Source: Coptis chinensis (lineage: Eukaryota > Streptophyta > Magnoliopsida > Ranunculales > Ranunculaceae). Taken from it: a stretch of 64,000 bases of DNA. Position 1 is the stretch's first letter. Each line of letters begins with the position of its first letter. The notes beneath the pieces were generated by a model, which was not told the DNA's origin, did not search any database, and saw nothing but the letters and a program-made list of their open reading frames with translations. Made by a program: the position numbers and the translations under genes. Location of the stretch: positions 7,413,501 through 7,477,500 of the forward strand of contig CM027382.1 of NCBI GenBank assembly GCA_015680905.1. The letters run 5' to 3'. This document shows positions 2,815 through 63,584 of the stretch, piece by piece.

Positions 2815-3190
2815 ACTATGTGAAATCTTCAAAGGTTATCTACGAACGGGTGCTGTTATATTAATTATTCTGAAAAATATTTGCAAATATGCATAACTAT
2901 TATATATTAATATTATATTAATCACTCAACCAAATTTCTTATAACGTGAAAACCTCACTTTCAATTAAAAAAAAAACTCGTCTTTGATAAAATCCTTCAA
3001 CTTTATTTTGTTGTTTAATAAAAGAAGTTTGATTGAATTTTTGTGAGATTGTCTAATAAGGTGAAGTTCATATATATTGAAACTACTTGAATAGCAAGGA
3101 GTTCCCAATCATCTTTAAAAAAGATAAGATAAACACTATTTTAAATGCAAAACTATACTTATTGAGACATTCCCACAACATATAACCCAA
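2815..3190. repeat. Leader segment of satellite block II
   Basis: Diverged direct copy of the segment at 800-1160, with the same order of motifs and small indels. It separates the two 55-bp arrays and shows that the satellite region has a higher-order structure of two leader-plus-array units. Confidence 0.7.
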
Positions 3191-4150: not shown

Positions 4151-4329
4151 ATTATATATTTTTTAAAATATTTGTCATTATTGTTTTGCCGTTATTAATT
4201 TTTTTTCATTTTATATTATATATTTTGTGATGTTATTTTTTGTATAATTATTTTTAACTATGTTTTGAGGCCGTGTTAAGGATATATTCGAAATAAGTCG
4301 GTGCTTTATCATAGATACTAAAATTGTAT

Positions 4330-4720
4330 GATTTGTAATAGGGAATTAGTTTCTACAAATCACCTATTTTTTAGCAATTTTTTTTATTTGATCAAATATA
4401 TAATAATTGGAACACTAAAAATGTTTGATTCGTAATAGGAAATTAACTTTTACAAATCACCTATTTTTTAGCAATTTTTTTTATTTGATCAAATATATAA
4501 GAATTTGAAATACACTCAGACTCTCCAAATATAAGAATTAGAAATACACTCAAACTCTCCAAAGAGTTTCAATGTACGTGGGATTGTATGCTATTAGAAA
4601 ATACTATATTTCATATTATAGTGCCACATAAATGAGAGAAAAACTAACTCTCATATTAAAGTGCCACATAGGAGAGAGAAAATCATCCATAAAAAGTCTC
4701 TGCTTTAGTATATAGATAGT
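4330..4720. repeat. Short AT-rich tandem duplications
   Basis: Three small tandem duplications follow one another: a ~97-bp unit containing CAAATCACCTATTTTTTAGC (copies near 4356 and 4453), a ~34-bp unit around ACACTCARACTCTCCAAA (4505-4565), and a ~42-bp unit around AGTGCCACATA (4620-4680). The segment ends in TAGTATATAGATAGTAG. It is non-coding and could be the edge of a transposon, but no clear termini were found. Confidence 0.6.
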
Positions 4721-5770
4721 AGATAACAAGAAGACTGCATAGGATTATTGACTGAAACTTTGGTTACTGAATACACATGAGCTTATGATTAGTTGTATCA
4801 AATATGGAAGAACTTAATTAAAACAGTATTTAAAATGCATTAAGACCATAGAACGCAACCATCATAAACTGTAACATTGTGACCTTGGAACTAACTCTGC
4901 CTCATTTGTTGGTTGCGCAAAGTAACCAAGCCTAAAAAAAAAGGCACAATATATATATCCAGCCCGTTATATGAACTCCATTTGTACGAACTCCAAAGAA
5001 ACTCCACTATGAAAAACAATGAATTAGAAACTGATTTTTGGTGGAGATATTATCTTCACAATATAGATTATCCTTAGAAAAAATCAACACATTTATAAAT
5101 GTCTAGATGTATCAAAAATTGCTTACAATATTATAAAGTTATCTAATGGTCCAAAATTTTCAAATTTCAAAACAACTTTTGACAAGGTTAAACATTTTTG
5201 TTTGGGGATTAGTATACAACATATTTTGTACAACAGATCTTACAATGAATGTGGACCTTACAACACGTACACCAAATCCTAGGGTCCTTAATAAGAGAGT
5301 CCAACTGTCATAATTGACTATCAAAATGATGAAAATATAGCTTGGCTTAACTAATGCGCAAGCAAGCATTTGACCAGAATATGACCGAAATTGGTGCTAA
5401 AAACACACTATCTTCCAGTTCACACTTTTTTTAGGACAATCCACACTCTCATTTACAAGACTTATTAAAGGGGTTTCTATTTGATTCCCCCCCCCCCCTT
5501 TAATTTACTCCTTCCGTTGTATTATATTTCTTTGATTCTTTATAGTGTATTAGTTATGATTTCTTCATTTTTATTTTTCTTCATTTTGTTATTTTCTTAA
5601 TTAAAGAAATAAGCAATATTTGAGATGAACAAAATCAGTTGAGTTTCTGGATTATTAAGTGACTAATCACTAAAATTTTACTACAGGTGTAGTGTTGTTA
5701 AAAATGGCATAATCATGTACAGAATTGTTTGACAATAGAGGAAGATATGAGGCAGGTCACTGGATTTCCT
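4721..5770. other. Intergenic, no gene seen
   Basis: AT-rich DNA with a run of about 14 C residues near 5488-5501. The only open frames are short and lack codon structure. Nothing else is recognised. Confidence 0.6.
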
Positions 5771-5777
5771 GATAAGG

Positions 5778-7950
5778 ATGTTGAACATATATAATATTCA
5801 AACACTATTTGTGGGCATGGGTTTTGATTCAAGCGAAGAGGCGAAAGGATACTACAAAAAATATGGTCTTAGCAAGGGGTTTTCAATCATTAAAAGATTG
5901 TCTAACAAATCCTGGAGTAATTGTGATAAAGTGACAAACATCTCTTTTACATGCTCGCATTTGAATTATTATTAAAAAAAGTTTAATGAGGAGGTGTCAA
6001 GACCACGATTCAATACCTCAACACAATGAGAGGGGAATGCAAAACACAAATGTATATTAAGCTCATTCGAACCACAATGAAATGGGAGCTAGGTTAAGTA
6101 GATTTGTGGCGAGCATAATCACTCCTTTGTGTAAGCCCTCAAAAAAGAAACCACCTAAGGCTAAATTGAAAATGCCGATGCAGTGAAAGGTATGGTACGG
6201 TTGGCGTTTTTATGTGCAAATCTACAGATAAACAAAGTCAATACTATTCTTGGAGGTGAAGTGATTGGTGCCAACGATCGTGGTTTTGGAATCATCTTCA
6301 TGATGTGAGACAAAAACTTGATGTTAGTGATGCTCAATGGGTTTTAATCACTTCAAAGAAGAGAAATTGATAATCCTTAGTTTTACCATGCTCAAATGGT
6401 GTGATTTAGAAGGGAGAGTTGTTAATTTCTTTTAGGTTGATGCTAGGTCATGCATGTCCTACCAACAATTTGGAGATGTAGTCACTTTTGATACAACATA
6501 CAAGACTAACAAGTACGAGTTACCTTTTGCACCATTCAATTGGGTGTAAACCATAACTTTCAAACTATCCAATTTGGATGTGCATTATATTGCTACAAGA
6601 CGAAACGGAGAAGAGTTTCGATCTTATGGCTATTCAAGACTTGGAAGGAAGCAATGGGGGGAAAGGCTCCGATTTCTTTTATTATTGACTCAGATCCAAC
6701 CATGAGAGTTGTTGTTCCTAAGGTGTTTCCTACCACACAACACAAGTTATGTTATTAGCATACTAAGAAGAAGTTTGGTAAAAAAATTAGGATATTTGCA
6801 CTACAAAAAATCAAGTTATTTCTAAAGGGCCATGAAGGAATGTCTGAGTTTAACATTTAGGATTGAGGATTTTGAGAGAATTGAAGATGGAAATCATTGA
6901 TAGCTAAATATGGGCTTACCAAAAATACTTGGTTGGATGGACTTTATAAAGATATAGAGGCATGGGTTCCAGTGTATAATCGAACTACTTTCTTTGCTGG
7001 TATGAATACTACTGGCCATAATGAGGGAATTAATAGCTTTTTCAAAGACTATATCTATAGTACTATTAGTCTAAAGGAATTCGTTCAAAAATATGAACAA
7101 GCTTTGAAGAATATAGAAGTAAAGGAGAGACACGATGACTTTTGAGTCGAAGTAGAAAAATTGTATTGTTACTGGAAGAAGTTTTATTTTGAAGCATGCA
7201 ACGAAGATATATAATACAAGAAAGATTTATGAAAAATTTAGGGCTCAGTACTTTGATCTTGAGTTGTATAAAGCTAACTTTGTTGGTGGTAAGTTGAATA
7301 CATATAAGGTGGAGTTCATGCGCAATAAAATTGATGGCGAGAATCAACATATATTGGATTGTGAAATGGAATCCACAAACTTGTGATCGAAGGCGTTTGT
7401 GAATGTCACCGTTATGAGTTCGTTGGAATACATTGTGCCCACTTAATAAATGTATTATCCAAACTTGATGTTTATGAAATTCCTAAATGTTTCATAAAAG
7501 AAAGATGGTTGAAAAGGGCTAACAGATTTAGGAGAGATGATAAGGGAGGATCACAATGTCAAGAACAAATTGAAGTGATGAACCTTAGCTATTTATGCCA
7601 AGAAGAAACAAAATGGGCATGTATTGCCTTGTGAACTCCAGCAAGCTACAAGATATTCTTAGATGGTTTACGGGAACTCGGTAAAAAAATATCATGTATC
7701 ACTCCAGGGGAAGTTGTCAAGGAAGATGCTCTAAGTGAATCAACACCATGTGCTTCAAGAGATGACCCTTCTTTGCCATCGGCACCATGTGATTCAAGAG
7801 CTAGATGACCCTTCTTTGCCTCGTAGCTCTTAGATCCCCCTGTTTCACAAACTAAAGGTAGACCCAAAAAAGATGATGCATCACAAGGGGAACATGGTAG
7901 ATACTTAGATCTATGGAAGAACAAGGAAGTAATGTCAGAGACCCAACACA
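5778..7950 (+). pseudogene. FAR1/FHY3-related (MULE-derived) gene, decayed
   Basis: Successive + strand translations match the order of a FAR1-RELATED SEQUENCE protein. A FAR1 DNA-binding start (VGMGFDSSEEAKGYYKKYG) lies at ~5808. Then comes the MULE-transposase core: FGCALY, WLFKTWKEAMGGKAP and DSDPTMR at 6570-6710, with KVFPTTQHKLCY after it. TFFAGMNTTGHNEGINSFF lies near 6990-7050. A SWIM zinc finger (CECH...HCAH) lies at ~7400-7440, and an AT-hook-like KGRPKK near 7855. FRS proteins act in phytochrome signalling and descend from Mutator-like transposases. The coding sequence here is broken by many stops and frame changes in a region that looks intronless, so it cannot make the full protein. 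It could be a host FRS pseudogene or a MULE relic; no terminal inverted repeats were found. Confidence 0.85.
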
Positions 7951-28677: not shown

Positions 28678-30958
28678 AAATAGATAAAATAGATATATGA
28701 TATCTAGCAGTTACGGATAAAAGTCCCGTAAGTAAATAGATAAGTTTTATCCTTGTTTTTCGGGGAGTTTTTAAAACTAAAAAGGGAGTTTTCTCACGTA
28801 GAGTTTTTGGGGGAAAAACCCATAGAGTTTTATACAGAGGAAAAAAAAAAGGAGAGTTTTACTGACAACAGAAAAGGAAGATTTTTCCTGGTAGTTGGTT
28901 GATAGTCGGAGAGTGCTAAAGGTGAGTAGATATTTTATGGATTTTTATTTTATAAAATCTTTGTTACTGTCGATTTCTTTTCTGTTGAAATCTGTCGTGT
29001 TGTTAAAACTTAAAACTCTGAAATTTGATATTGAACTGTCGAACTGTGCTACTGTGTGGTGGTGTGGCTATGTTTATTTGGAACTGTTAGTATAGTTTTG
29101 GAAACTGTTTGAACTGTTGAAGCTCGAAAAAAGCATTAATGGCGGCGGGAATTATTTCTAGATCTAGTTTTGGTAAAGTTTGGATTTAAGGATTGGAGGT
29201 TTTTGCCTTAATTAAAGTTGGAGGGTTTGTGTTTAGGAGTAATTTCGGTTGGTGTTTGGATGGTGGCGATCGGAACTGGTGGTGGCCGATTTGGTGGCTG
29301 CTGGAGGGAGAAGATGACCGGCTGGGCTTGGGCTTTGGGCCCAAAGCCTTTTGGTTTTGGTTGGGCCGAAATCTAATTTTCGTATCAGACAATAGAAAAC
29401 TAAGTTAGTTAGTTGGGTGAACCAAATGGGTGGGCTTATGTGTTGTAAATTTTAGATTTTCTTTTGGCCTTAAGTTTAGACTATGGGCCTTTGACTTTGG
29501 GCTTTTGGGTTAGAGGAGTTTGAAATTTGGTTGACTTTGATGATCTGTTGACGAGTTGACTTTGATCATTGACCGAGTTGACATCGATCATTGACTAGGG
29601 TTGACTTTGACCAGTTGACCTAATTTGACCTTTTAACCTCGGATTATGATTCGCTCTATTAGGATAGGTCTAGGGCTATTAGCATGCTTGGCTTTAGGCT
29701 AAGACCTTTATATATCGTGTATGCGTGTATTAAGCGCTATGTGATATTTAGGTTTTATGATATGCAACGCTTATGACAATTTATACATCTATGAAATTAA
29801 TAACGCGTAAACTAATAATACATGAATCAAGATACTCTTTTCGTTATCCGAAATAATATATACAATAAAGTTCAATAATGCGTAAAACAAATTTATCGCG
29901 ACTCTTTTAGAACTCTCCCCTCAAGTTTTGGAATTGAGTTTTATGATTTGTTGATGTCATATGTTAGGTGGGCATTTATTGAATGTGCCATAAATGGCCC
30001 ATTAACGTTATCTATGGGTATTCATTCAATGAATGTGCCATGAGTGACCCAGTATTCATTGAATGTGCCATGAATGACCGATTCTTTGATTTTGCCACTA
30101 GAGAGGAACTAAGGTATTAAGCCAAGGGTTAGTTGTATTATTTGATTATCGCGAAGTGTTTGGGTTTACTTTTGAATACCTAATATAATATCTACATATG
30201 TTATATAGAAGTTCTAACTTTCTTTTGCAAGAGGGTAGGACTTAATAACATTTTGTGCAGGGACGCGGTCCTACCCTTATACAGCAGTGGATATCGGTAA
30301 GTTTTAATTCAATGATTTAAATATTAAAACGAGTTATTAGAATGAGTTAATATAATGGAAGTTTTGCTTGGGAAGAAACTATGTCGGTTGAAATGATGGA
30401 ACTACGTGTCTTACAAGATGAGAATGATTAAGTTATGAGAAAATATAATGTGATATGATTGTTTGGATAATTAAAGTATGATAATGGTTTTATGTGGTTA
30501 GTCTACTCATACCAAAGAAATTCCATTTTTTAACCCATGTTTGCTTTGTTTTGGCAACGTGGGTGTGTTCTTGGGAACATAGGTGGAAGGCAGTGGAACC
30601 GCGGCGTTTGATTTGGAGCAGTCTGTTAGTTTTTATTAGGTCTGATCTTTTTGGAAGTATGTAATAACGTAGTTTCATATTCATCATGGAATGAGAATAC
30701 GATGTTGAAGACCTATTATTCTTAGAGTGTTATATTGATGATTTTTGGATGGAAGATAGACTTTCATAAAGTAATAAAGAGAATTTTGGAGATTATTTTT
30801 GTTGTTAAGATTCTTTATGATGTGGGTTTTAGGTTTTGACATGTGTTGTATCCACCCGCCATAGCACTGGTTTTAGACAATTGAACATAGTGATGTTTGA
30901 GATATTTATATTTCAAATATTCATTTTTTTAATTGTTTAGAAATTGGCCGCGATGACA
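28611..30958 (+). mobile_element. Family-C solo LTR, copy b
   Basis: Begins TATAACACCCCG (a T-G to T-A variant of the family start) and ends GATGACA. It shares blocks with the other family-C copies: TCTAGATCTAGTTTTGGT, the TTGACTTTGA run (29530-29620), TTGATGTCATATGTTAGG (29950), GGACGCGGTCCTACCC (30260) and ATATTTATATTTCAA near the end. CTTAT before it and CTTTAT after it fit a target duplication with a one-base slip. It contains a long (ATA)n microsatellite at 28632-28675. No coding region; fossil inside element B. Confidence 0.72.
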
Positions 30959-39503: not shown

Positions 39504-39690
39504 CACTACACCATAATAGGATATTTGCAACACGCACCTTTTTTGCTTTGCAACGCTTATTTACTGTTAGTAAATTGCCAACGCTAAATAAGTGTTGGCA
39601 ATGTTGTAAAGCGTTGGTTTATTTGAGTGAATTTCCGGAATTAATTGTTAACGCTTAAAAAGCGTTGGAGAAGTGTTACAAATCTAAAAA
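39504..39690. repeat. F1 left terminal and subterminal repeats
   Basis: TIR followed by CAACGCTTATTT, CCAACGCTAAATAAG, GCGTTGG and AACGCTTAAAAAGCGTTGG copies. These are presumed transposase-binding repeats by analogy with TNPA sites in Spm. Confidence 0.8.
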
Positions 39691-39699
39691 ACCAAAACA

Positions 39700-42634
39700 A
39701 CTTCGAAATTTCAAAAATAGGGAAACAAAAAAGAAATCGCCGTCGGTATGTCAAAATAGAAAACCTCAAACCTCTCTTTCTCTCTCACAGCCGCTGGGTT
39801 AGGTTAGGGTTTTTTTATCTTTGATGGTGACCCTTGTCCCTCTTTCTGTCCTTCAACCCCTCCTCCTCTTTCTGAAAAGCACAAATTATCGAAAACAAAG
39901 AACCCAAAACAAAATAGACCTAACTATTTTCTCTCTTTTCCAAACTAAACTAGGTATTTGTAATCTCAAAACCCTTTTTCATACCTTTTACCGAAAGCAA
40001 AAGATTTCAACATACTACTAATTCACAAACACAGGTTCATTGTCTTTTTTTCCTTCTAAAAATTCATTTAATTTGAAGTGGAGATTCCTCATTGTTTTGG
40101 TGTTGTAATGGCGGTCGATTGGAGAGCTTTCCGCCAGAAATTTCTACTACTTTATCGGTCGGTATTTGAATCTCGAATTTTACATTTCTTTGCTATATGT
40201 TTGTCTCATGTGTAGAATTTCATAGAATAAAGGCGATACAATTTTTTACTTGAGTTTAAATGTTGAAAGCAAGTTGCTTTAAATTTTGGATTTTAGAATT
40301 TTGATGAACTTGAGTTGAATTTGCGGATGTACTTAGAATGTTTGGATAAATGTTTATATATGGGACTTATTGCATCTGCTTTTACGGGCAATTATTCTAT
40401 GTTTGATAATGCATGTTGGTAAATAGTCAAACTCATGTGTTCAAGGATGATTACTATCATGATGCTTTACCTCTATGTAAGGAAGTTAAAGAACTGTATT
40501 GGTGTCACAAACATGTTTGGAATGAAAATCTTAGAGTTGGTACTTGAGAAATTGCAAAAAACATTCCATTAATTTTACAGGGGTATGGCAGTTCCAGTAC
40601 GAAAACGTGTATTTGTGTACAGGGGTCCTTAAATGTTGGATTTGGGGCTCACATAACATCTTACAACAACATAGGCACAGCTGCATTTACTTAGTACATG
40701 CTTATTGCTCTCGCGTCTAGTCCATTCAAACATGTGACTAAGCTTGTTTTGATTTAAACCATAATATAGTAGAAACTAGAAAGTGTGTGGAGTTTTCTCT
40801 CTTTAAAGAAAATGGTTTTAGCTATTTTTTTTTCAAGCCTGCATTATTTACTATAAGCATGTAATTATGGTGTAGTGTGTATAGCTAGTGCGTAAAAACC
40901 AAAACCAGGTCGACATACTTCTATATAACAGGAGACAGCAAGATGAGTCCCCTTTTCAAGATTGGAAAAGAACACACATACAAGTATATGACCATATTTG
41001 CTATAATAGGAAACTAAATATTCAGTTAGTTCTCCTGCAATTCCTCCTAATCTCTCCATTGGAACCAGTTAATGGTCTGATGTCTCCCTTCTTAATCATG
41101 GTTGCAACAAAATCGGCATTAAATGTGCTAGGATTGTTTATGTAAAGTCTCACTTGGGAATCATTTGCATCTGAGATTTGTGGATGTGCATGCATCTTTT
41201 GGCTTTTATTTTCTTAAATTAGGTACATTGTGAAGGCTAAAGACTACACTAGCTAATTTAACATGTATATATGTACTTGTAAAATTGATTATTTGTAATT
41301 TTCTAGATAGAGTGTGTTTGATTGTTTTTTGCTTGTTTTTGTGTTCAAGTGTTTCTGTTTTCATTTGTAATTTTGTTTGTGTGGTTGGAATTTGAATCAC
41401 CCATGCACTAAATAACAATTGTTAAATACAATTTGGATGTTATGGATAAGGAAAAAGTAAGAAAGAAATGTCAGCATGTGCTCTAGATAATCTTTAAACA
41501 GCTAAGGGAAATTTTGTTTCTTTTTTTCGTTCTTTTAATTTGTTTCTTCCTGATGTCATAATTTATTGTAATCAAGGCGGCTTTATAAATGACATTAGTT
41601 CGACAAGATCTCGAGGTGGGGTTTTGTTGCGGTGCTAGTCTTGGTTAGGCCTTTCGAAAAGGTAAAACAAAATTTTTCTTTTGCATTAATTAGTCTAGTA
41701 GCGTGATCGGTTTAACAATGCTGTTTTTCTTCTTTTTTGTTAAATGATTAATTTGTTTTAAGATCTTGTGAGTATTGTAATTCATCATCTATGATTATCA
41801 CCCATTTGTAACATGTACCAAATTAAAATCAGCATGTCATTTTATATATGAGATATCAATATGCATTATGCGTGCTTTTTGTTTGGTTTGATTGATTGCT
41901 TGCTTGCTTTGGTAGGAATGTCTAGCTTGCTCTAGTGTGATATTTAGCATGTGTGTCATCTTATTTTATTTGTTGCCTACTAGGCTACTACTACACCATC
42001 TTAGGGTGATTGGTTCCCTATTCATCGAGAAGTTGCAATGCCGATTTGCATGTACTTGGTTTATTGGACTCTTAATATGCGTTTCCATCTCATGTTGTAT
42101 TTCCCCATTGCTTTTACTTGTTATGAAGTTTAACATGCTTGGGCTGAGATAGTAAAATGTGTTAAATGCTTGTGTTTTGTAGCTATAAGCATACACCCTG
42201 ATTAAGTATGATTAGCGTAGGTCTTTGAGAAACTAATGCCCTCAGACGAAGTTTTCTTGTTTGATTTAATTTTAGTAACTTATCATCCTTAATGGATTTT
42301 AATATTAATTAGGCTACTTGTGTCTTAAGAATGGATTTTAATATCTGAGGAGTGACTTTCAGTCCCCTCGTCAAGTTTCTTTTCGAGTCCCAAATGAATT
42401 TACTTGTTTACTCCCTGACTCCAAACAGTAACTCTAAGGTGGTCGTGACCGTTAAACTGTAAAAGTAAATACCCTTGTGATGAAGTTACCTGAATTTCTA
42501 CTTTCTATTTCTGAAGTTGTACATTGTTGTTTTTGTTCTTCCAAGTTTCAACTCTGTCATTAAATCACCCCATCGTAGTATTGTGGTCGCTTGATTTAGT
42601 GGTGTGACCTCATCACGCTTTTGTTTTTCTATAG
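39700..42634 (+). other. F1 interior, no recognised gene piece
   Basis: A CT-rich leader-like segment (CTCTCTTTCTCTCTCACAGCCGC, ~39770-39795) resembles the equivalent place in F2 (~56490-56515) and may be the shared promoter/5' leader. The remaining ~2.8 kb is T-rich and intron-like; I could not match its open frames to any protein. Confidence 0.45.
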
Positions 42635-43870
42635 CTTCATGAATGCTTTGGTTCAGCTCTTGGTGCGATGGGACCGAAGCATTTCTTAGTTCTTCTACCC
42701 CTTAACCTCGAAGCTAAAGACCCATCTAAAGCCAATGTGTGGTTGTTTCCTATCTTGAAGCAAATATTGTTGGTGCTAGTTTAAGCTTTTTGGGAAGTCC
42801 ATCTTGGGCAAGGTTGGATGCTTAAGACAAAAGTCTCGGATGGTATGAACCTTATCATTTTAGATTGATTCGTTTTTCTTTCTTTTATGTGGCCTAACTG
42901 TATGCATCGTATGCTTGGCGTACCTTGAGCAAGAGGGACAGATTTATTCTTCAAGGAGTGCGGATGCACTTATATACCCTCTATGGTCCTTGTTACCTGC
43001 CTTTTGTAATTATCCTTTAGACATCGCTAGTAGTTTCAAGGATCTGAAGAAAGGATTGTGTGATGCGCTTTGTGATGAGCGATGTGCATGGCATAACTGT
43101 TCGAAGTCTGATTTCTCATTCAACGTAACAAAAGTTTGTTGGAAGAAAAAAATGATCCGCTCAATGATGACATAAGCATTCTTTGTACAAAGAGCTAAAG
43201 CAACTTATACCCCTCAAGTTGCAGCGGTGAGAATTTGAATGCACCGGGTTAGTGCTTTCGCTAATTTTTATCGGTATTATCCGCGCCTTCATGAAATCAA
43301 CAACTGATAGTGGTGGATGTGTGCGGTATTTGCATATGCTTGTTACCCGCTTCATTGAGATAGATGTATTTATTGCATGGATTTCCCTTTGTTATTTTTC
43401 TTAGTTCAAAGTCCGCTTCACAAGTTTCATTGTATCTTTAGTATTCACACGCTCATATAGGTATGTAATAAAGTGTATTTCGCGGATACCCCTCAATTGA
43501 CCCACTCGAAATGTTGATAAGAGCCGATCTTTGTGTGGGGCCCTGCGTCCCCTGCATATAGACAAAATCACATAGTTAACGGTGAGGATTGAAATTTTGG
43601 ACATTGTAAACTTTTATCCATTCATCATATTTTTTTGTAGTTACTAAAAAAGGATTTCCGATGATCCCATGGTCGTGTTATCCTTAAGAACCATTATTTT
43701 GGCTTTGAGAAGTTTAGTAATTCTATTTGTACCGCTTTGGCAGTCCACAATCGGTCGGTTTGTTTCAATATCGGATAAGGAAGTAGTCGAGGGGGACTTT
43801 TGAGCGCACAATGGTTAAACCTCCGAAGGTGACTCAAAGGAGTCGTTAAAAGCAGAGTCGTCGCAAACTC
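42635..43870 (+). pseudogene. Captured RRP12-like exons
   Basis: After a TATAG acceptor, 42635 reads LHECFGSALGAMGPKHFLVL, then LEAKDPSKANVWLFPILKQ. This matches RRP12-like proteins (NUC173/HEAT-repeat ribosome biogenesis factors that export pre-ribosomes). The next piece (42924 on) has SSRSADALIYPLWSLLPAFC and NYPLDIASSFKDL. Later pieces include KATYTPQVAA (43195), FMKSTTDSGGC (43285) and SDKEVV (43770), all in the order of the parent protein. At least four frame changes and stops lie within the exons, and one acceptor looks lost, so it encodes no full domain. Only an internal stretch of the ~1200-residue parent is present. Confidence 0.8.
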
Positions 43871-44546
43871 CACTTCCACGAAGATTGAGAACTCGGCAAA
43901 TGGAAGTTCTCCATTGCCAACTTTGCAACTTGTAATTAATAATCTAAATTGAAGCTATTAGTGGGATTGTCTTGATTGGTGGGCAGTAAACTACTTGAAT
44001 TGGCGGAACCGAGATATCAAAACTTAGAACTAATGTTCTCAAATTTCAGTTAGAATCCGCTACTTCCTCAAACAAATGCACGGATAACAATAGTCAAGAT
44101 GCTTTACCCCTTCTTTTTTACTATATGTGTTGGATTACTACGTTTGGCGATGGATGTAACTCTACTTTTTATTTGATTTTGCAGAACGCCTTTTCGTGAT
44201 AAAGACAGGGTAAGCATTTAATGTTCTAATTTCTCTTTCTTTGGATCACATGCTTTTAAGAGATGGGTTTATTAATTTTGTATTTTTCATTTACAGATAA
44301 AAGTTCTCCAAAGATGAGCTTGGTACGTAAAGGAGCTTTGCTTATAATAAAGGATGTGGAACTTCGGATCAGTCTTTGCTTATTATACCCCTCGTTTTAT
44401 GCTTTTCGGGATCACTTTGCCAATATTGTGTAGTCCCATTAACATAGAATGCTTGTTTCACGGGGAGAAAGTAAAGAAAGAACCAGGTCAAATGCCTCAA
44501 ACAAAATTTAAGGTATTTGTGATTTTAATAGAAATTAAAAGTTGCA

Positions 44547-45106
44547 ATGACCTACTTCGGGGTCGATATAAACACTGGTGGAATCATAGATACATTTGCC
44601 AACTTTGTATGGGAACCTACTGTTGTTAAGGTATTCAATGTTCTTTCCCATGTTGCTTTGTTCAGTTTCTTTTTACCTACATTGGTCGTGATTGCAAATG
44701 TCTCAGATAAATGCTATAAATGCGACAACAGAGGCAGCTTGCCTAATTCTAAGTGTGGACGAGACCGAAGAACCCAAAGGTAAGGTGTTCTCCGGCCTAG
44801 TTGTATGGCGTTTGTAGTGTTATCTATCAAACATGTTACACTCGGCCAAAAGTTCAGTGTCTTCATATCCCAAGAGTTCAGTTGTTCAGCCTTCTGTTAT
44901 TTCTTTTTTCATTCCACTGTGCCATCCTTGGTAGTCACAGTGTTTTTAATTTTTCTTTGCATTGTTATTTTCTAATGGCTATTCATTGTATTGATAATCC
45001 AGTCGGAGAGTGCACAAGGAGATGCTACTGCTAGAGCGATGGGTTCGAGGGCATGGGGAAGGCGGTGTTTACGGGCGTGGAAGGGGAATCGCGAAGGCAT
45101 TGAGCT
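44547..45106 (+). pseudogene. Captured CCT7 (TCP-1 eta) 3' exons
   Basis: Three exon-like pieces: 44547-44630 (YFGVDINTGGIIDTFANFVW then EPTVVK, donor GTATTC), 44707-44779 (INAINATTEAACLILSVDET then EEPK, donor GTAAGG) and from 45003 (SESAQGDATA, then a glycine/arginine-rich tail). This is the C-terminal end of the eta subunit of the cytosolic chaperonin CCT/TRiC, which folds actin and tubulin. Splice sites are preserved, showing capture from genomic DNA and not from mRNA. The N-terminal and apical domains are absent, so it cannot form a chaperonin subunit. The last piece shifts frame in the glycine/arginine tail. Confidence 0.85.
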
Positions 45107-45339
45107 TTTGGGTTTGAAGATGCCAAGGACTTCCCTAGAGTGAAAGGAAGATTTTGAAAGCAAGGGTGGTTTGTTTAGGTGGGAAGTTTGTTTTTGTCCT
45201 TAATTTTGTTTGCTTGGGTTTGGAGTGAGTTTGTAGCTATATATATATTTGTCTAAACCATTCTTGTATTCATTGGATTCTTGTATTCATTGGTTATTGT
45301 AGGTTTAATGGTCTCGCTACAAAATATGAGAAATTATTA

Positions 45340-45764
45340 TTTTTTTATTAGCAACCCATCAAAGAACGGTTTATAACCGTTACAAATGAATTTTAAATTA
45401 TTTTTTTAAAATTAACTAACAACTTTGCAACGATTTACAAACCGTTGGTAAAATTTTAACAAATTACCAACGCTTTAAAAAGCGTTTGTGAAATTTCTGT
45501 TTTGAAACGCTTTAGAATTTCGTTTGAAATGTTTTAAATTTCTGTTTGAAACGTTTTTAAGCGTTGGAAATTTCGTTTGCAACGCTTTGAATTGAATTTT
45601 TAACGCTTTTTTTAAGTGTTGGAAATTTCTATTTACAACGCTTTTTAAGCGTTGCAAATATTTCCAACACTTTACTGACGCCATATTTGCAATGCTTAAA
45701 AAGCGTTGCAAAAATTATTAGCAACGCTTTTTTGCCGTTGCAAATAGCCTCTTATGGTGTAGTG
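45340..45764. repeat. F1 right subterminal and terminal repeats
   Basis: At least ten copies of ACGCTTT and AAGCGTT, many paired as GCAACGCTTTTTAAGCGTTGC-like palindromes, ending with GCCGTTGCAAATAGCC and the TIR. Minus-strand frame 45475-45711 is a product of this array. Confidence 0.85.
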
Positions 45765-54759: not shown

Positions 54760-56232
54760 GAGAATGACCGAGATACAAACAAGTTCATCCCGATCGAGTT
54801 TATTCTTATTTTTTTAGTTTATTTTTTTAATTTTTTAGTTTTTTGGGCTATTTTTTAATGGATAATTTTGGTTTTAAATTCCTCTTGTGGATGATTGGGT
54901 TTATGTTATAATCGTTAGACTGTCGGGGTTGGATATTGGGTGGACTGCCGACGCTATGAACAAGCGTTCATGGAGGCTTAGCCCATGAATCGTCTTGCTT
55001 TATACTATGTTGCTTTGTTTGGTGGGTGATTGTTGTTTGTATTGGTTGATTAAACCGTGATTGGGTTGTGTAGTCATGCGTGATGTCAGGGGGAAGCTTG
55101 AGAAAGCTCGAGCCATCGTTAATGGCGTTAATGCCATCTTGGGACTTAGGGTTTATCGTTTTAACAATTGTTTGAACTATGTTTGGTTATTGGTTGGTTA
55201 GTGGTGGTTGAGAGTTGTGTGGGTTGTCGATTGGAGCTTGGAACAAGCTTTAATGGTGGCCGAAACGATTTTAGATCTAGTTTTGGTGATGTTGGGAATG
55301 GACGATTTGGGCTTTTTGTTTTCTTTAATGTTGTTGGTTTTTGTGAGGATTAAAATCGGTGGGTTTGTGTAGTGGTGGTGTGGAAAGGCTGTGGTGCCGA
55401 TTTTGGTGGTGGTGGTGGAGTGAAGAAGATGAACGATTAATCGATTTTGGGCTTGGGCCAAAACATTAGTTTAGTTGGGCGGTTTTAGTTAAGTGTGTTA
55501 TGTGGGCGAAATCTAATTTAAGTGGTTGGGCCCTTTTTCATTTGTTTTGAAATTTATGGATGGTTTAATTTAAAGTTTTGGTAGAACTTCGGTTGTGTTT
55601 TGGGCTGTTTCATTATAAGTTTTGGGCGTTTAATATTTTAGCCAGGGCGGTCCATGTAGGACTTAAAATAGATCTTTCGGGTCTTTACATGTTTGACTTT
55701 CGGGTTAAGGTTTGGGCTTGCCCGGTTAGGTCCCGAACTAATGGCTTAACCGTGAGCCCACGAGTAAATACACCTTTGACCTTAGTCAACGTGAACCATG
55801 GCTATGACCGCACCCGGTCGAACATGAAAACGGCGGTTGACTTGACACCATGATGGTTGACTTTGACTTTGACGAGTTGACTTTGACCGGGGTTGACTTT
55901 GACCGGTTGACCTAATTCGGAGATTATGATTTGGGTTTTATTAAGGCTATTAGCATACTTGACTTTTAGGCTAAGACCTCTATATATCGCGATGTGTATG
56001 TGTATTAACTATGATGATTTTGCATTATTTTACGATCTCCAATGCTATGATCCATGACACTAATAAAACTAATAGCGTAAATCAAAAATACAGGAATGAA
56101 GATACTCATTCGTTCTCTGAAATGATACATAAAATAAAGTTCAATAATGCGTAAATAAATTTACCGCACTCTTTTAGAACTCCACGACTCAAGTTTTGGA
56201 AATTGAGTTTTATGACTGTTGATGTCATATGT
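54760..56232 (+). mobile_element. Family-C LTR, copy c, left part
   Basis: Shares TTTTAGATCTAGTTTTGGTG, GGGCTTGGGCC, GAGCCCACGAG..CCATGGCTATGACC and the TTGACTTTGAC run with copies a and b. The usual TGTAAC start was not found; the left edge is unclear and may have been lost. It runs to GATGTCATATGT, where F2 inserted, and resumes at 62575. Non-coding fossil. Confidence 0.65.
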
Positions 56233-56420
56233 CACTACACTATAATAGGATATTTGCAACACGCACCTTTTTTGCTTTGCAACGGTTATTTACCGTTAGC
56301 AATTTACTAACGTTAAATAAGCGTTGGCAATGTTGCAAAGTGTTGGTTTATTTGAGTGAATTTCAGAAATTAATTGCTAACGCTTAAAAATCGTTAGATA
56401 AGTGTTACAAATTAAAATTT
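56233..56420. repeat. F2 left terminal and subterminal repeats
   Basis: TIR then GCAACGGTTATTTACCG, AACGTTAAATAAGCGTTGG and AACGCTTAAAAATCGTTAG copies. The order is as in F1 but with a mixture of AACGCTT and AACGGTT versions. Confidence 0.8.
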
Positions 56421-56696
56421 CGCGAAATAGTGAAACAAAGAAAAATCGCCGCTCTATTATTTCGGTCTAAGTATAAAACATAAGTTTCTTTCTCTCCTCT
56501 CTCTCTCACCGCCGCATTTCAAGATCCGATCTCGCACTCCTCAAATTTTTACTTCTCTCTCCAAATCCTTGAATCCGTACAAATTCTTTGCCTTCAAATC
56601 TAGTATCTTTTTCCAGATCTAGTTTCTTTCTTTGCAAAAAAGAACGCAGATCTGAATCAGGCCGGGATTCAAGTTGGTAACTTTATTGTCTCGAAC

Positions 56697-56732
56697 ATGG
56701 AATCCAACCCGATGGTATCATGCCTAGGTATA
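56697..56732 (+). CDS. Possible first exon of an F2 transcript
   Basis: An ATG at 56697 in the context GAACATGGAATCC opens a short frame (MESNPMVSCLG) that runs into a GTATAA donor-like site at 56730. It lies after a CT-rich leader and before the amidohydrolase exons. Its origin is not recognised and it could be chance. Confidence 0.3.
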
Positions 56733-56976
56733 ATCTAGTTTTTTTATTTTTTATTTTTCTATTTCACCGCTGAATTGCACAGAATTGCACATAAAAATGT
56801 TTGTTTTTGTGTTGGTTATTATTAATTAACAAAACTTCCTTTACCTGGTTTTTGTGTTTGTTTAATTTGATTTTCTCTCTGTACGTGATCTATTAAGAAT
56901 ATGAGAAAAAAAATTAAATCCCAATTGTGACGTGAAGTTTAGAAATTGTGAACTTTGAAAATGAAACTACTAATGT

Positions 56977-58598
56977 ATATGGCCTTATGAAGCCAACATG
57001 ACTAAGGAGGATTCTTATATTTCCACTCTTCTTTGTGGAATCGAACTTATACGATCCGGCGTAAGTTCATTTCCCTGATTATTCGACAAAGTAATGTATA
57101 TAATATGGTACATTTACTCATGTGACATGCTTTGTTGAAGCGGGTGGGCAACATGTGTCTGAAATGGCAAGGGCAGTGGAAGTATTGGGGTTGCGTGCAT
57201 GTTTAGCACAGTCAACCATGGATTCTGGTCAGGGATTACCTGGAAATTGGGCTCTTCATACAACTGATTACTGTATTCAGGTTCAACATCCTCTTCCCTT
57301 TCTTTCTTTTTGAACATCTCACTTTCTCTCTCAGTATAAGCTGTAATGGACTGAAATTCTGACTTCACTACTACTACTTGATATTTATTGATTGCTCACC
57401 TCATTTTGTAGCACAAAGTTTTTATGGGCTGTAAAGTATTGCTTTAGGTTATTCCAATTTTTTTGTTGCTTTAGGTATTGAGTTGTTAATATGGGTTAGA
57501 ACTTAGAACATCTGATCTGACCTGCTAGTTTTATTAAATTTGTAATATAATGTTTTCCATCAATAGATCGGCTAACTTCTTTAGAAAAATAATGGAGAGT
57601 CGTGCCAGAGAAGTGTTGATATTAGTTGCGTTGCAATTGTGTACTTTGAGGCTAGATGTCTGCTACCATGAAAATCTTGAATTTTTACTTTCGTCTGTAT
57701 GTGAGGTAATGTGATGAAGTGTGAACTGATAACCTCCACAATATTTCCTAGTGGGACATAATGGGCCAAAATGCTGCATCTCCCAATTAAGTAGGATTTA
57801 GTAGACAAGTAATTGTGGTGGAGCAGAATTCATGCCTGGATCTACATCTGCAATTTCGTCTTAGATGAATAAATTGGTTTTAATTTGAAATGTGATGTTT
57901 CCATTTATTTTTTGTAGCATCACTAAGTTTGTTCCTCTCTAGGCAGCATCCAAGGATGATTCTGTTCTGGAAGAAGTGGTAGATCAAAACCTATTTTTAC
58001 GTCAGTGTGTTAGCTGGATGTGAATATGTGATATTGTTAAGTTCATTTTGTTTCCCGCCACTGTTTTTGTTGGTACTTGTTAGTGTCATTTTTAATCCAT
58101 GTTTCGTAAATCATTATTTCCATCATTTGTGGTATAATTATAGTTAATATATTTCAAGGGAACAGTCCCAGAAACAACTTTACAACAAACATCATGATAC
58201 AGCAGATGGGCGCATCAGAATTTGGCTTGGGATTAGACAAATAATGAATGCAACTGATAAGTTACTGATTGATACCAGCGACACAGCAAAAGAACTAAAG
58301 ACAGGCATTCACATGGTAAAACCTTGAACCTGTCTGTTTTCTTGTAGAGTTACTCTGTTCCTCGTACTAAACTCTGTTTTACTGAGTCCATGGAATTTAT
58401 TCGACTAGAGCTGGTTTGTGGGTTCCAGTGCTTAGCCTTTTTATATTTGTATAGCATGTTGCAGAAATACCTTATGAGAATCAACTTGTTGTGGATACTC
58501 GAGAAGTTGATCATGGAACCGTCACCTACTTGGAGAAAATAAATTTCCTACAAGGCAACTTGTTGGCAGCTCATTCGGTCTGGGTTAGTGAGGCTGAG
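56977..58598 (+). pseudogene. Captured TRZ/ATZ-type amidohydrolase exons
   Basis: Four exon-like pieces in native order: 56977-57060 (IWPYEANMTKEDSYISTLLC), 57122-57280 (VTCFVEAGGQHVSEMARAVE), 58166-58315 (GRIRIWLGIRQIMNATDKLL) and 58455-58598 (HVAEIPYENQLVVDTREVDH, then LLAAHSVWV). They match the middle of plant chlorohydrolase/guanine-deaminase-like metal-dependent amidohydrolases. The H of HVAE and the AAH position are usual metal-site histidines of the family. Introns are kept. The acceptor before the second exon lacks its AG (ACTCAT), so splicing there would fail. Both ends of the protein are missing, so no enzyme is expected. Confidence 0.82.
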
Positions 58599-59556
58599 GT
58601 AAATTTTCTTGTCCCACCAAATTATGAAAGTAGGGCATATAACATTACTTGTACAAATGCTGATATTGACAAGCTGTGTTGTAAGATTGTAAACCAGAAC
58701 TCTCTAGTTTATGTAGATTAGATTCCGTTTGAGATGAGGGTTAACCATTTAAACAAGACTCTAGTGGGACAGTGCATATAGGCGACATACCATTATATCC
58801 TTTTAGATGCCTGGTCATTGTGTAAAACGATGGGAAATGATAAGTAGGCTAAGGGGTTCCAACCTAGTTGAGATGTTAGATGTATATGTTTCCACATACT
58901 GGTCACCCGCATTATGTCCTGCAACTCGCACGCCATTAGGAGTGACATGCCAGTTACTTGAAAATTATTGCGACTAGGAAATTTCTAATGGTGTTCTCAG
59001 TGACGTCTGTGTTTTGTTTTACAAGTTTGTAACTTAATTGAGATGGGGTGTAAAAACAAATACCATACAGTAGTCTGTGGTGGGGTGTGTAAATCCTTGT
59101 GGCTCCCATCTGGAGGTGTAGATTTACATCCCCCATTGCAAATGCTCTAATTGATGTGTCCTGGAACAAAATCTTATGGAACAACCTCATAATCTTAGTG
59201 TTCTCCTAATGATACCTCAGTTGGCTCCGCTTTAAAAGGTGTTTCGAGTTGGGAAAAATAGTTAGAAATGTTACTATGTGCTAGATGATTTTTGAATTAC
59301 TTCGCAACTATGTGGTCCTATGATTGGTTGGAAGGCCTGTTGTTATTTTTAAAATACTGGCTTTTGTAAATGATGCTCCACTGTGACCACAAACTTGTCT
59401 TCTTTTGGGGTTTTTTGAGCTCCATTGTTCATCTATCAGTTTATTTCGATTCTAAGGTTCTCCTACTCAGTGGAGGATTGAATTCATCCTACTGAACCTA
59501 GAGATATGGAACAAATCTTTATCAATGATATATGGGTCTGCATGCTGATATTTCAG

Positions 59557-60021
59557 GTGGAGAATGTTATCACAGAGATTGGTAAGAACTACCCTGCTGA
59601 TGGTTTGCTTCCAATCTATATTAATCCTCACACAGGAGCAACAGCATCATACCCAACAATTACCTTTGGAGCCATGGGTGATAGGTACTCTCTCTCACAG
59701 AATTATATACACTTTTGACAGATTTGAGATCAATAGCAACACTTTATTCTTCTTCTTTTTTATTATTATTATTATATTTTTAACAAATTAATTAATTAAC
59801 ATGATTATTGATTGGCAATTTGGCAGGCAGAGATGACCAAATTATCTCAAGACTTGCTTCGATTGCAGAATCAGCTGCAAGAATTTAAATCTGCTTCAGG
59901 TGAAACTATGATTACGAATGTTGTTAAGGATGATCCGATTGATGTTCAACGGAGAGGGAAAGTCAAAGAAGCTATGCTTCATGCATGGACTTGTTATGAA
60001 TGGGGGCAGGATGAACTTCAG
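59557..60021 (+). pseudogene. Captured class I alpha-mannosidase exons, order reversed
   Basis: 59557-59684 (after TTTCAG; donor GTACTC) reads [20 protein letters not shown], then FGAMGD, from the catalytic GH47 domain. 59827-60021 (after TTGGCAG; donor GTTTGT) reads MTKLSQDLLRLQNQLQEF, then DDPIDVQRRGKVKEAMLHAW and WGQDELQ, which belong to the stem and the start of the catalytic domain. In mannosyl-oligosaccharide 1,2-alpha-mannosidases (MNS1/2, N-glycan trimming in the early secretory pathway) the second piece precedes the first, so the exons were rearranged after or during capture. The usual YEKYAWG is shortened to YEWG, an in-frame loss of three residues. Confidence 0.82.
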
Positions 60022-60205
60022 GTTTGTTTTTGTTTATTTCCAGTTACTTAGACTACTTTTTCATCACTGGTAAAGCAATTTTCCCTGGAAATTTTGAATT
60101 GCAACAGCTCCTCCACATTTTCAGGTTCGCTTTTGAGTGCCTTTCTCGTTTTCACTCGAGATTTGTTCTTGGTAATGTGTCTAATTCTTCTGCATGCTGA
60201 TTCAG

Positions 60206-60424
60206 GCTACTTGGCACTGATTGTTTTGTCGCACTATCTAGAGGTATGTTTTCCAATATATCTGTTAATACTCACATGCAGATGTATGCCTGAAATGACT
60301 GCTTATGTTCTTTCTTTCTTTTTTTTTGCTGTTTTTTTTTGTATTTTTGTCCTGTAGACTGCAAGATTCAGACAGTTTTGGGATGAGGCTGCAAAAAACC
60401 GCAGCATACTTGAAGTTGTGCCAC
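60206..60424 (+). pseudogene. Captured eIF3k exons
   Basis: 60206-60243 (LIVLSHYLE; donor GTATGT) and 60358-60424 (after CTGTAG: TARFRQFWDEAAKNRSILEV; donor GTAAAT). These match two neighbouring exons of translation initiation factor eIF3 subunit k, whose plant proteins have a TLIVLSHYLE-RFRQFWDEA segment. Only about 35 of some 225 residues are present, including part of the PCI/winged-helix region, so no functional subunit is possible. Confidence 0.8.
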
Positions 60425-60822
60425 GTAAATATTCAAGTTTTTCTTATATCCATAAATTCAATCAGATCTGCTTTCATGTTAAATGCTCATTTCTTATATC
60501 TGATTTTGGAATATAGGATGACAATTTACCACTCTATTGATATGGCTCTGTGCACTGTATTTAGTGCTTTATGTTGAGTTGTATATTTATATTATATCTA
60601 AGCAGTTAAGTGCCATCCTTTTCAAAACTCATTCTTAACGAAAGGAACACAGACAAACATAATATCACCTTGATTAATTTTATAGTGTTAATAGCATGAT
60701 GCTACAATTATGGCATAACCCATCTTTCCTGATTCATATGCACACCATTTGTTGCTACCTAGGAAAGTAACTAAGTAAGCCAATAGTTGGTGTTAACTGT
60801 AACACAAGCTACTGTATTCTAG

Positions 60823-61970
60823 GATTCTGGTCCCATGGCTCATCCTGTCAGACGACCACATTCTTATATCAAGGTTAGCAACTACTAACACATAATTTCT
60901 ACGATCTATGTTAGTAAGGAATTGCTTGTAAAATGATATAAAAGAGTTCATAGATATAACTTACGGCATAATGCCTACAGGCTACATCCACAGATAATCG
61001 TTGATAATTATCCGTTATCCAAATCAACAATAATAACAATAATACGATTGTTAAATTATGAAAAAAAAATCTTTCCTTCCTCATTCGTCTCCATCTCGTA
61101 GGGACCCTTGGTTTTGTAACCACTCCTGATGATAATGTAACTGTTGCAATTACTCCGTCATATTTATAACATTCAATATGTTCATATAGTATCCGACACA
61201 GATAGGTGGAAATTTATAACATATCCACATTTCTTTAAATTTTTTTATTTGTTTGGCTTGTCAATGTATGCAGATTTAACAAGTATGTTAAATGAGCATA
61301 TATGACATGTTATGTGGTACAGCCTGTAATTGCCGCCACATGTATTACGAAACCTGGGATTTTGAAAGTTGGCATACCGCCGGATATGTTTTTACCTTCC
61401 ATTTATAGCAATCTCATTATTTTTATTTTTATGTATGGGTGTGGTTGTTTTTATTGGTCTTTGGCTACTCTTTAGTTTATTTAGTGCCTTACACATTACC
61501 CATCAGATTTTAATTGATAACTGCTGTGTTTCTTTTCACAGATGGACAACTTTTATACTGGTTAGCTTTTGTTCTCTTTCGTGATTTTACTATTGATCTG
61601 AAGTGATTGTGTGCTGTCGATTCTGATGTATTGAAATGTGTTGGCTGATGTTGTGCAACTCCATGATTGGCTATGACTCCTCATATGGGTCTATTATGGA
61701 CCATACAGTGACTGTGAGTCTTACTGTTTATCCCTCCTATTTATACATATAGTTCCATTGTCTATTTCCTTACTAAAAAAGTTATACAAGGCCTAAAAGG
61801 TTTCTTATTTTTCGACTAGGGTATATGAGAAGGTTCGTTTTTCTTCTCAAGACTCTTGTTCATCTTCATGTTGCACTATGACTTCATTTGGCAATGTAAG
61901 GATTGTGGATTATTGTTGTCATCTTTGATAGGATTTGAAGTTGTCAGGATGTACAAAACTTTGCTTGGGA
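60823..61970 (+). pseudogene. Captured M1-family aminopeptidase exons
   Basis: 60823-60873 (DSGPMAHPVRPHSYIK; donor GTTAGC), 61542-61560 (MDNFYT; donor GTTAGC), 61820-61833 (VYEK) and 61932-61970 (FEVVRMYKTLLGS). Read in order these follow the plant PepN/puromycin-sensitive-type M1 aminopeptidase around MAHPVRPHSYIKMDNFYT. This segment lies downstream of the zinc-binding HExxH, which is absent here. The third piece is truncated, so the captured copy is degraded. Confidence 0.8.
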
Positions 61971-62220
61971 GTATAGAATTGTATTTTATTTGATTTCATA
62001 AAATTGTATTTTTTATTTGGTTGCTGTATAGATGAGGTAGTTTCTTTTACCTCTTTCACTATCTTGTGAGATTTAGTCATCAAACCATAATACAAATGCT
62101 CCTGTTTTGATTAATTTCTTTCGTCCTATTTGCAAAAGCATTGGTAATTTTCTTTGTTTCTATATGAAACCAGGAGGTTCAAATTTAGGGCAAGAAAAAA
62201 ATAAAAATAATTTTTTTTAC
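61971..62220 (+). other. F2 interior between gene pieces and right subterminal repeats
   Basis: T-rich, no recognised coding sequence; it ends in an A-run where the AACGGTT/AACCGTT array begins. Confidence 0.5.
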
Positions 62221-62229
62221 AATATCAAC

Positions 62230-62574
62230 ACATTAGTAACGGTTGTAAACCGTTGCAAAGCAAAAATAAATATTAAAGCATCATCAATAATCGTTACAAA
62301 TCAAATTACGCAACGCTTTTTAACCGTTAGTAATTGTCACTCTGCAACGGTTAATAACCGTTGGAAAATTTAGTTTGCAACGCTTTTTAACCGTTAGTAA
62401 TTGTCACTCTGCAACGGTTAATAACCGTTGGAAAATTTGGTTTGCAACGGCAAAAAACCGTTGCAAATATTTCCAACACTTTACCGACGCCTATTTGGTA
62501 ACGCTTAAAAGCGTTCTGCGAAAATTATTCGCAACGGTTTTTTGCCGTTGCAAATAGCCTGTTATGGTGTAGTG
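62230..62574. repeat. F2 right subterminal and terminal repeats
   Basis: About ten AACGGTT / AACCGTT motifs arranged as inverted pairs (e.g. CAACGGTTAATAACCGTTGG, twice). It includes a tandem duplication of ~75 bp (GCAACGCTTTTTAACCG at ~62310 and ~62382) and ends in the TIR. The equivalent F1 array uses AACGCTT/AAGCGTT. Confidence 0.88.
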
Positions 62575-63584
62575 TGTTAGGTGGGCATTTATTGAATGTG
62601 CCATAAATGGCCCGTTAGCGTTATATAAGGGTATTCATTGAATGTGCCATGAATGACCCGGGTATTCATTGAATGTGCCATGAATGACCAGATTGTTTGG
62701 ACTGCCCTAGAGAGGAACTAAGGTATTCGCCTTGCGGGTTAGTTGTATTCTTGGATTATGCGAGTGTTTGGGGTTACTTTTGAATACATAGGATATCTAC
62801 ATATGATATATGCAAGTTCTAACTTTCTTTTGCAGGAGGGTATGACTTAATAACATTTTGTGCAGGGACGCGGTCCTACCCTTATACAACGGCGGATATC
62901 GGTAAGTGTAATTCAATGGTTTAGATATTAAAAGAGTTAATAGAATGAGTTAATACAATGGAAGTTAAACAAATGGAAGTTTTGCTTGGGAAGAAACTAT
63001 GCCGGATGAGATGACGGAACTAACTGTCTTCCAAGCTGAGAATGATTAGGTTATAATAGATTTAAAGTGTTAGTTGGATAAGAAAAGTTTGAAATGTTTA
63101 TATGTGTTAGTCTACTCATACCAGCAAATTCAATTTGCAGACCCATGTTTGCTTTGTTTTGGCAACGTGGGTGTGTTCTTGGGAACATAGGTGGAAGGCA
63201 GTGGAATCGTGGCGTGTGATTTGGATTCTCGCCTGGAGCAGTCTGGGAGTTTAGTTTATTAGGTCTGATCTTTGGAATGATGTAATAACGTAGGTTACAT
63301 TTTTTTATATGACATGAGAATACGATGTTGGAAACTGTTATTCTTAAAGTTTGTTTATGTTTGTATTGGGATGGAAGAAAGTTTTTAATAAAGTGATAGT
63401 TGAGGAATTTGGAGATTTTTGTTGTTAAGTTGATCCTGTTGTGATGTGGGTTTTAGGTTTTGACATGTGTTGTATTCCCCCCGTCATAGCCTGGGTTTTT
63501 AGACAATTGAACCAAGTGATGGTTGAGATATTTATATTTCAATTATTCATTTTTTTTAATTGTTTAGAAATTCGGTCTGTGACA
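62575..63584 (+). mobile_element. Family-C LTR, copy c, right part
   Basis: Resumes at TGTTAGGTGGGCATTTATTG, as in copy b at ~29963, with GGACGCGGTCCTACCC (62868), GGCAACGTGGGTGTGTTCTT and the end AAATTCGGTCTGTGACA. Non-coding fossil. Confidence 0.75.

Follow-up and report, generated by a model that had tools for sequence, protein, structure and literature searches.

A CACTA transposon of Coptis chinensis with five segments from four host genes, probably combined largely from cassettes carried by its relatives

How does one transposon come to hold pieces of several unrelated host genes? The question is raised by a stretch of 64,000 nucleotides from the genome of Coptis chinensis (contig CM027382.1; C6:7413501-7477500 in the numbering used here), referred to below as the window, in which an earlier note had recognised a CACTA transposon with fragments of four genes. 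Here we report a computational analysis of this element within the genome searched, which comprises 935.6 Mb in 116 contigs. The genome searches scored the best candidates only, and the numbers of copies and loci given below are consequently lower bounds. Our preferred answer, to which we assign a probability of roughly 0.85, is that the element is a gene-fragment-carrying CACTA transposon of the Pack-CACTA or Tpn1-like kind, most likely non-autonomous, whose cargo was combined largely from the cassettes of relatives and which then spread.

The element is 6342 bp long and occupies window positions 56233-62574 (Table 1; an element coordinate is the window position minus 56232), beginning with CACTACACTATAATAGG and ending with CCTGTTATGGTGTAGTG. 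Its terminal inverted repeats (TIRs) end in CACTA...TAGTG, it is flanked by a 3-bp target site duplication (TSD), and direct and inverted subterminal repeats are found at both ends, which are the features of the CACTA (En/Spm) superfamily. The word AACGGTT and its complement AACCGTT occur 11 times in element positions 1-420 and 5951-6342 taken together and not once between them. Joined without the element, the flanks read ...gtcatatgttaggtggg..., matching the uninterrupted sequence of a related long terminal repeat (LTR) near window position 29960. Identity between the two LTRs is 82.6% over 662 aligned bases, and the second one is a paralogous, not an allelic, empty site. The CACTA termini, the TGT duplication and the empty site on which the earlier note had based the borders were all found. 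With at most two mismatches the end pattern occurs genome-wide 801 times in forward and 803 times in reverse orientation, compared with 0 and 0 for the reversed control; a literature search for the end sequence of the family found no paper.

Five segments that match four unlinked genes at the DNA level, in introns as well as exons, make up 4849 of the 6342 bp (76%), while leader, spacer, joins and tail together account for 1493 bp. The four gene families had been named correctly, and each finds its match in a gene locus: the amidohydrolase at C2:20.90 Mb, the GH47 alpha-mannosidase at C3:30.07 Mb, eIF3k on contig C91 and the M1 aminopeptidase at C6:85.65 Mb. A single contiguous parental locus as the source is ruled out by these four separate loci. 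Introns align between the segments and the loci, and the genes have further exons that are missing from the element, in support of the proposed capture at the DNA level. All five segments are in sense orientation; a common orientation had been noted. The count of four pieces is right for genes and one short for segments, since the mannosidase gene gave two, and these have changed places with respect to the gene (parent positions 4332-5138, segment a, followed by 1466-1795, segment b).

The assignments differ in the route by which they were made. The amidohydrolase gene has further exons on both sides of the captured part, and GH47 exons are spread along the C3 locus beyond the captured parts. 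Mannosidase exon a alone is weak in Pfam (0.024) and was named through its gene; its protein finds mannosidase loci on C3, C7 and C2, the near copies being C7:11.82 Mb and, over part, C2:72.28 Mb. The C3 locus was chosen as reference because exons along it match GH47; in the C7 copy other sequence intervenes. The identity of the eIF3k segment was taken from the parent exons, which match eIF3k chains (best 7.8e-24), because the best chain matches of the element peptide are spurious (astressin 0.018; eIF3k itself 0.43). The M1 gene has, downstream of the captured part, a DUF3458 domain (Pfam 1.7e-18), a typical domain of M1 aminopeptidase N; upstream of that part, the open stretch had no match in Pfam. 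The joined-exon M1 query peptide was one residue shorter than the window copy, as in the parent. No Pfam match was obtained with the element peptides of eIF3k, segment b and M1, and neither the amidohydrolase exons nor the C-terminal exons of eIF3k by themselves matched a solved structure. The C91 and C6:85.65 Mb loci were absent from the genome matches listed for the Pfam models CSN8_PSD8_EIF3K (5 matches) and Peptidase_M1 (6 matches). The upstream flank of the C2 amidohydrolase gene (L074 and part of L013) has open stretches that resemble, by eye, two PIF/Harbinger proteins.

The earlier note's wording had implied a single element built of gene pieces; in fact 147 bp (60068-60214) match no parent, the family has about 800 ends per strand, and a genome search with the interior located three further places that match end to end, giving four full-length copies. 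Their TSDs are perfect, 3 bp long and all different (TGT, GAC, TGA and GGT), and the seven internal junctions examined are common to all four. From the individual TSDs and the common junctions it follows that the composite moved as a unit. Host coding DNA within intact TIRs and multiple copies with their own TSDs are both features of Pack-CACTA elements. Systematic errors do seem to be present in this assembly, and one might suspect an assembly chimera with no real element behind it; four copies in four places, with the same examined junctions and each with its own perfect 3-bp duplication, leave that suspicion almost no weight.

To judge from the sequence, no captured fragment is complete, and a working enzyme is probably not made from any of them. 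The leader contains a putative first exon and could splice onto the sense-oriented exons, so that chimeric transcripts may arise. Introns of the GT-AG type had been described throughout; many splice sites are indeed retained in the window copy, and the acceptor of the second amidohydrolase exon is an exception, reading CAT there, as compared with CAG in the parent and in L012, and being deleted in L010. The idea that the leader drives a functional chimeric gene would draw on the five sense segments, on the leader's ATG and GT donor, and on the splice sites kept in the window copy. However, most of each protein is missing from the fragments, the acceptor just mentioned is lost in two copies, and the reading frame of segment b is shifted in L010, and we regard a working gene of this kind as very improbable.

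Several segments are shared with relatives across identical, non-parental junctions, and the picture of a transposon that collected its pieces is accordingly right about capture by CACTA elements and too simple about the route. The end of the M1 part is present in 11 of the 18 loci compared at the join between M1 and tail; in all 11 the match to the M1 gene ends at the identical base (parent 5163) and the match to the element continues into the tail. The spacer recurs in 12 other places, and in part in two more, and it continues into eIF3k in each of the six retrieved loci that contain it (L018, L025, L026, L037, L038 and, in part, L083), four of which (L025, L026, L038 and L083) show the family 5' end. 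Segment b is found over nearly its whole length in at least ten further places besides the C3 gene and the C7 copy, with a GH47 match directly beside it in nine of the ten; a nearby family end is known for one of the ten only, C1:86755054 (end at C1:86753733). For the amidohydrolase segment 43 matches were listed (40 of 153 candidates scored), and among these only the four copies and the C2 gene contain it. A relative on C7, L024, consists of leader (element positions 444-731), no amidohydrolase, a mannosidase part longer than that in the window (parent 2869-4635), then M1 and the same tail. Together with L084 (C7:25.89 Mb), L024 has about 2.1 kb of different cargo between leader and mannosidase, including a Sel1-like exon (Pfam 1.2e-4, below the cut-off of that model). 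Two further relatives, L017 and L020, carry M1 sequence upstream of the window part (parent 3940-3965), to which L020 adds 2981-3249.

The identical non-parental junctions in other members imply that much of the cargo probably resided in sister elements first. By the same junctions some cassettes are older than the composite, and these may have come together either through fusion or through copying from one element to another. A scheme of four independent captures, directly from the genes into one lineage and with no exchange, would make the other elements deletion derivatives; all segments are present in all four full copies, and L023 and L024 could partly be deletion products. However, L024 is not a simple deletion product, as it has mannosidase sequence upstream of the window part (parent 2869-4332) and its other 2.1-kb cargo, and the upstream M1 sequence of L017 and L020 is equally out of place in such a scheme. 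Independent capture, which the content of these three elements largely contradicts, is in our judgement improbable.

Two observations concern the sequences just described. In L017 (2206-3206), and also in L019, L020 and L022, about 0.75-1 kb of other sequence replaces 60 bp of the M1 region (parent 4674-4734); inspected by eye, the replacement in L017 includes a stretch resembling an untranslated region, with an ATG and a splice donor, possibly the start of another captured gene. The 147-bp spacer, for which as for the leader no source was found, could be a piece of a further gene.

Table 1. Features of the element and of the window, in window coordinates
Feature	Position	Strand	Remarks
TSD TGT, left copy	56230..56232		repeated at 62575-62577; present once in related LTR near 29960
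5' TIR, 28 bp, CACTA terminus, CACTACACTATAATAGGATATTTGCAAC	56233..56260	+	89% complementary to 62547-62574
Family 5' leader	56233..56971	+	in four full copies, L023 and L024; parts in other places
5' subterminal repeats, AACGGTTA/AACCGTTG-type units	56271..56400		repeat families
Candidate first exon in leader	56697-56727	+	ATG to splice donor GT; use of the ATG putative
Amidohydrolase (TRZ/ATZ-type) segment, 1942 bp	56972..58913	+	element 740-2681; continuous with C2:20901409-20903312, 94%
Amidohydrolase exons	56972-57060 (cut), 57122-57280, 58159-58315, 58455-58598	+	joined exons Pfam Amidohydro_1 1.1e-14
GH47 alpha-mannosidase segment a, 821 bp	58916..59736	+	element 2684-3504; exon 59557-59684; C3 gene 94%, C7 copy 93%
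GH47 alpha-mannosidase segment b, 330 bp	59738..60067	+	element 3506-3835; exon 59827-60021; C3 gene 87%, C7 copy 88% over part
Spacer, 147 bp	60068..60214	+	joined to eIF3k; matches none of the parents
eIF3k segment, 592 bp	60215..60806	+	element 3983-4574; exon parts 60215-60243, 60358-60425; C91:146176-146763, 96%
M1 aminopeptidase segment, 1164 bp	60817..61980	+	element 4585-5748; continuous with C6:85648338-85649535, 92%
M1 exons	60823-60873, 61542-61560, about 61930-61975	+	joined exons match aminopeptidase N chains, best 2.7e-10
Family 3' tail	61981..62574	+	common to many elements; subterminal repeats 62232-62556, 3' TIR 62547-62574
TSD TGT, right copy	62575..62577		duplicates 56230-56232
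Related LTR without insertion (empty site)	29950..29970		flank comparison
Second family member, 6261 bp, TSD GAT	39504..45764	+	RRP12 and CCT-eta pieces

Assembly of the element was probably stepwise and drew largely on cassettes already present in relatives. No relic of a transposon end lies where its segments abut; the leader-amidohydrolase and eIF3k-M1 joins have about 10-13 bp of filler, and the joins between amidohydrolase and mannosidase a and between a and b have 1-2 bp. As the ends of the element suggest, its cut-and-paste movement would depend on an autonomous CACTA element whose transposase acts in trans and recognises the ends described here. Cargo would enter during repair of a broken or excised element, by copying from a gene or from a sister element, and such copying would account for the short filler at some of the joins. 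Relatives would already have carried the M1, mannosidase and eIF3k cassettes, which would then have been combined; the amidohydrolase would have been added last, from its gene, before the composite spread to at least four copies. Repair copying with a change of template fits best, given the filler at the joins, the lack of end relics inside and the reordered mannosidase segments.

A different origin is offered by the fusion model of Catoni, put forward for Pack-CACTA elements in Arabidopsis and extended to other Pack-TYPE elements (accessible text of PMC8903248), in which two members in or near a gene are mobilised jointly after losing their inner ends, with gene DNA between them; repeated rounds could yield five segments. 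Contiguous, intron-containing segments fit this model, and inner ends can be lost. On the other hand, neither a TIR-like relic (up to 8 mismatches in 28 positions) nor the word AACGGTT was found inside the element, which holds one CACTAC six-mer and one GCAACGC, the latter alone among the five subterminal words counted, and the swapped order of the adjacent mannosidase segments is not simply given by the model. We hold fusion to be a serious proposal and, for this element, an unlikely one.

Stepwise assembly by copying receives some further support from divergence. Outside CAG/CTG and CG, Kimura two-parameter (K2P) distances to the genes are 1.4-1.7% for amidohydrolase, 1.7-2.3% for eIF3k and 1.8-2.6% for M1, and to the C3 gene 2.7-3.1% for mannosidase a and 5.5-7.3% for b (188 sites); the full copies differ from each other by about 0.3-0.6%. 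This rank would fit a last arrival of the amidohydrolase and a recent spread, and is suggestive only, because changes are few, the eIF3k and M1 ranges overlap and the exons of the genes are constrained. Plant sequences accumulate about 7e-9 substitutions per site per year; as a rough guide, the copies would then have separated less than half a million years ago, and the amidohydrolase would have been captured about a million years ago.

Several results weigh against the reading that we favour. No autonomous partner was tied to the ends among the 150 of 2715 Transposase_21 candidates scored, and none of the scored C1 candidates lies between nearby C1 ends (exact end matches listed; compared by eye). 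Outside CAG/CTG and CG, the C3 gene is not closer to segment a than the C7 copy is: of 559 such sites, five agree with C7 and not C3, four with C3 and not C7, nine are particular to the element and one differs in all. Over part of segment a the C2:72.28 Mb copy is nearer (96%), and segment b likewise has nearer copies than the C3 gene, for example C3:46885402 (95%). The divergence ranks depend on few changes (in L009, 17 of 1249 sites for amidohydrolase and 7 of 352 for eIF3k). Differences from the gene that the element shares with L024 amount to 9 of 359 sites in M1 and 4 of 216 in mannosidase, and 2-3 sites are shared in eIF3k; such differences can reflect change in the gene after one capture, and the shared junctions are the stronger evidence.

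A broader proposal, which we advance tentatively, is that the family works as a cassette-exchange system, in which captured segments are swapped between members, in sense behind a common leader that has a first exon, and new exon combinations arise mainly by element-to-element copying and not by fresh capture. Apart from its ends, the second family member in the window has nothing in common with the element at 56233-62574; five open stretches were searched in it, all on the plus strand, of which one matched RRP12 (7.2e-11), one CCT-eta (6.4e-5; Pfam 0.098) and three nothing. In the elements examined, recognised pieces lie in sense to the 5' end in 8 of 8 cases (amidohydrolase, two mannosidase, eIF3k, M1, Sel1-like, RRP12 and CCT-eta), three of which could not have differed, since the second window element and L024 were searched on the plus strand only. 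Source genes, several intermediates and four young copies are available in one genome, which makes the order and manner of capture accessible to sequence analysis. Descriptions of single elements miss the transfer of cargo from element to element, to which the shared junctions point.

Elements of this kind are already known as Tpn1, Pack-CACTA and Tgm-Express1, and we make no claim that the present cargo is unreported. The Tpn1 family of Ipomoea nil consists, according to the accessible text of PMC5105172 and PMC8195511, of CACTA elements with 28-bp TIRs, subterminal repeats and 3-bp TSDs, present in hundreds of copies; most of these are non-autonomous, with host gene pieces in place of the interior, and chimeric transcripts are reported. 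The Coptis family resembles it in the 28-bp TIRs, the subterminal repeats, the 3-bp TSDs, the hundreds of ends and the host gene pieces; its cargo is different, and the likeness claimed is one of organisation only. Tgm-Express1 of soybean is a 5.7-kb CACTA element with five gene pieces (UP, CDC2, FPK, malate dehydrogenase and cysteine synthase; accessible text of PMC1947982). Like the Coptis element it has exons and introns of several unrelated genes; unlike it, it carries five other genes, sits in a gene and has had its transcripts sequenced, as far as that text describes it (PMC1947982). Pack-CACTA and other Pack-TYPE elements, which are non-autonomous and bounded by TIRs, contain coding DNA drawn from several loci in maize and Arabidopsis, and in maize Pack-CACTA had the most distinct loci (accessible text of PMC8903248). 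In comparison, the Coptis element is traced to its source genes, contains a reversed pair from one gene and shares its cassettes with relatives. The suggestion that a four-in-one arrangement is new does not stand beside the five pieces of Tgm-Express1 and the multi-locus Pack-CACTA elements of maize and Arabidopsis (PMC1947982 and PMC8903248, in their accessible parts). Gene fragments are also captured by CACTA elements of Chenopodium, which resemble the Coptis element in this and differ in having the fragment or fragments of one source gene per element, upstream of the transposase domain (accessible text of PMC8978399).

Two of the four full copies look decayed. L011 and L012, on C1 and C3, have 94.9% and 94.5% identity to L009 in the main BLAST alignments, and outside CAG/CTG and CG they differ from it by just 0.55% and 0.62%, which rules them out as old decayed copies. 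Sites were scored as CAG/CTG with three flanking bases on each side, identical in L009 and L010; 102 of 143 are altered in L011 and 98 of 143 in L012 (about 70%), in most cases by small indels mixed with substitutions. The same count for seven other trinucleotide pairs, with neighbouring changes included, gave 11-34% (L011) and 12-42% (L012). Per base, the alteration rates in L011 and L012 are 0.30 and 0.29 at CAG/CTG, 0.05 and 0.17 at other CG, which is thus also raised in L012, and 0.02 and 0.03 elsewhere. A CG is gained at 57 of 96 altered sites in L011 and 57 of 86 in L012 and lost at none, and single C-to-T or G-to-A changes account for only 13 of 102 and 6 of 98 altered sites; methylation-driven C-to-T mutation is ruled out by these figures.

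CAG/CTG is a favoured CHG methylation context. The likeliest explanation of the scrambling, judging by its pattern in the letters, is that base-calling erred on CHG-methylated DNA; such a pattern is expected of a base-caller familiar with methylated C in the CG context only, and not of deamination. Errors from modifications absent in base-caller training have been reported for bacteria (accessible text of PMC10687267); a literature search on nanopore errors at CHG sites found nothing relevant beyond a paper on methylation calling. Frame breaks and low identities in scrambled copies should accordingly not be taken as age. This matters where copies are dated or pseudogenes called from such assemblies, as most of the apparent decay of L011 and L012 is probably base-calling error. 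In pairwise comparisons CCG/CGG was raised in several cases, with small numbers. Strong alteration of CAG/CTG was seen in L018 (19 of 26), L022 (9 of 15), the C7 mannosidase copy (14 of 26) and L027 (16 of 33), moderate alteration in L025 (6 of 20) and L024 (12 of 40), and little in L017 (1 of 15), L019 and L020 (2 of 15 each) and L032 and L033 (1 of 11 each). The window copy itself is altered at 6 of 57, 6 of 26 and 6 of 28 CAG/CTG sites relative to three of the genes.

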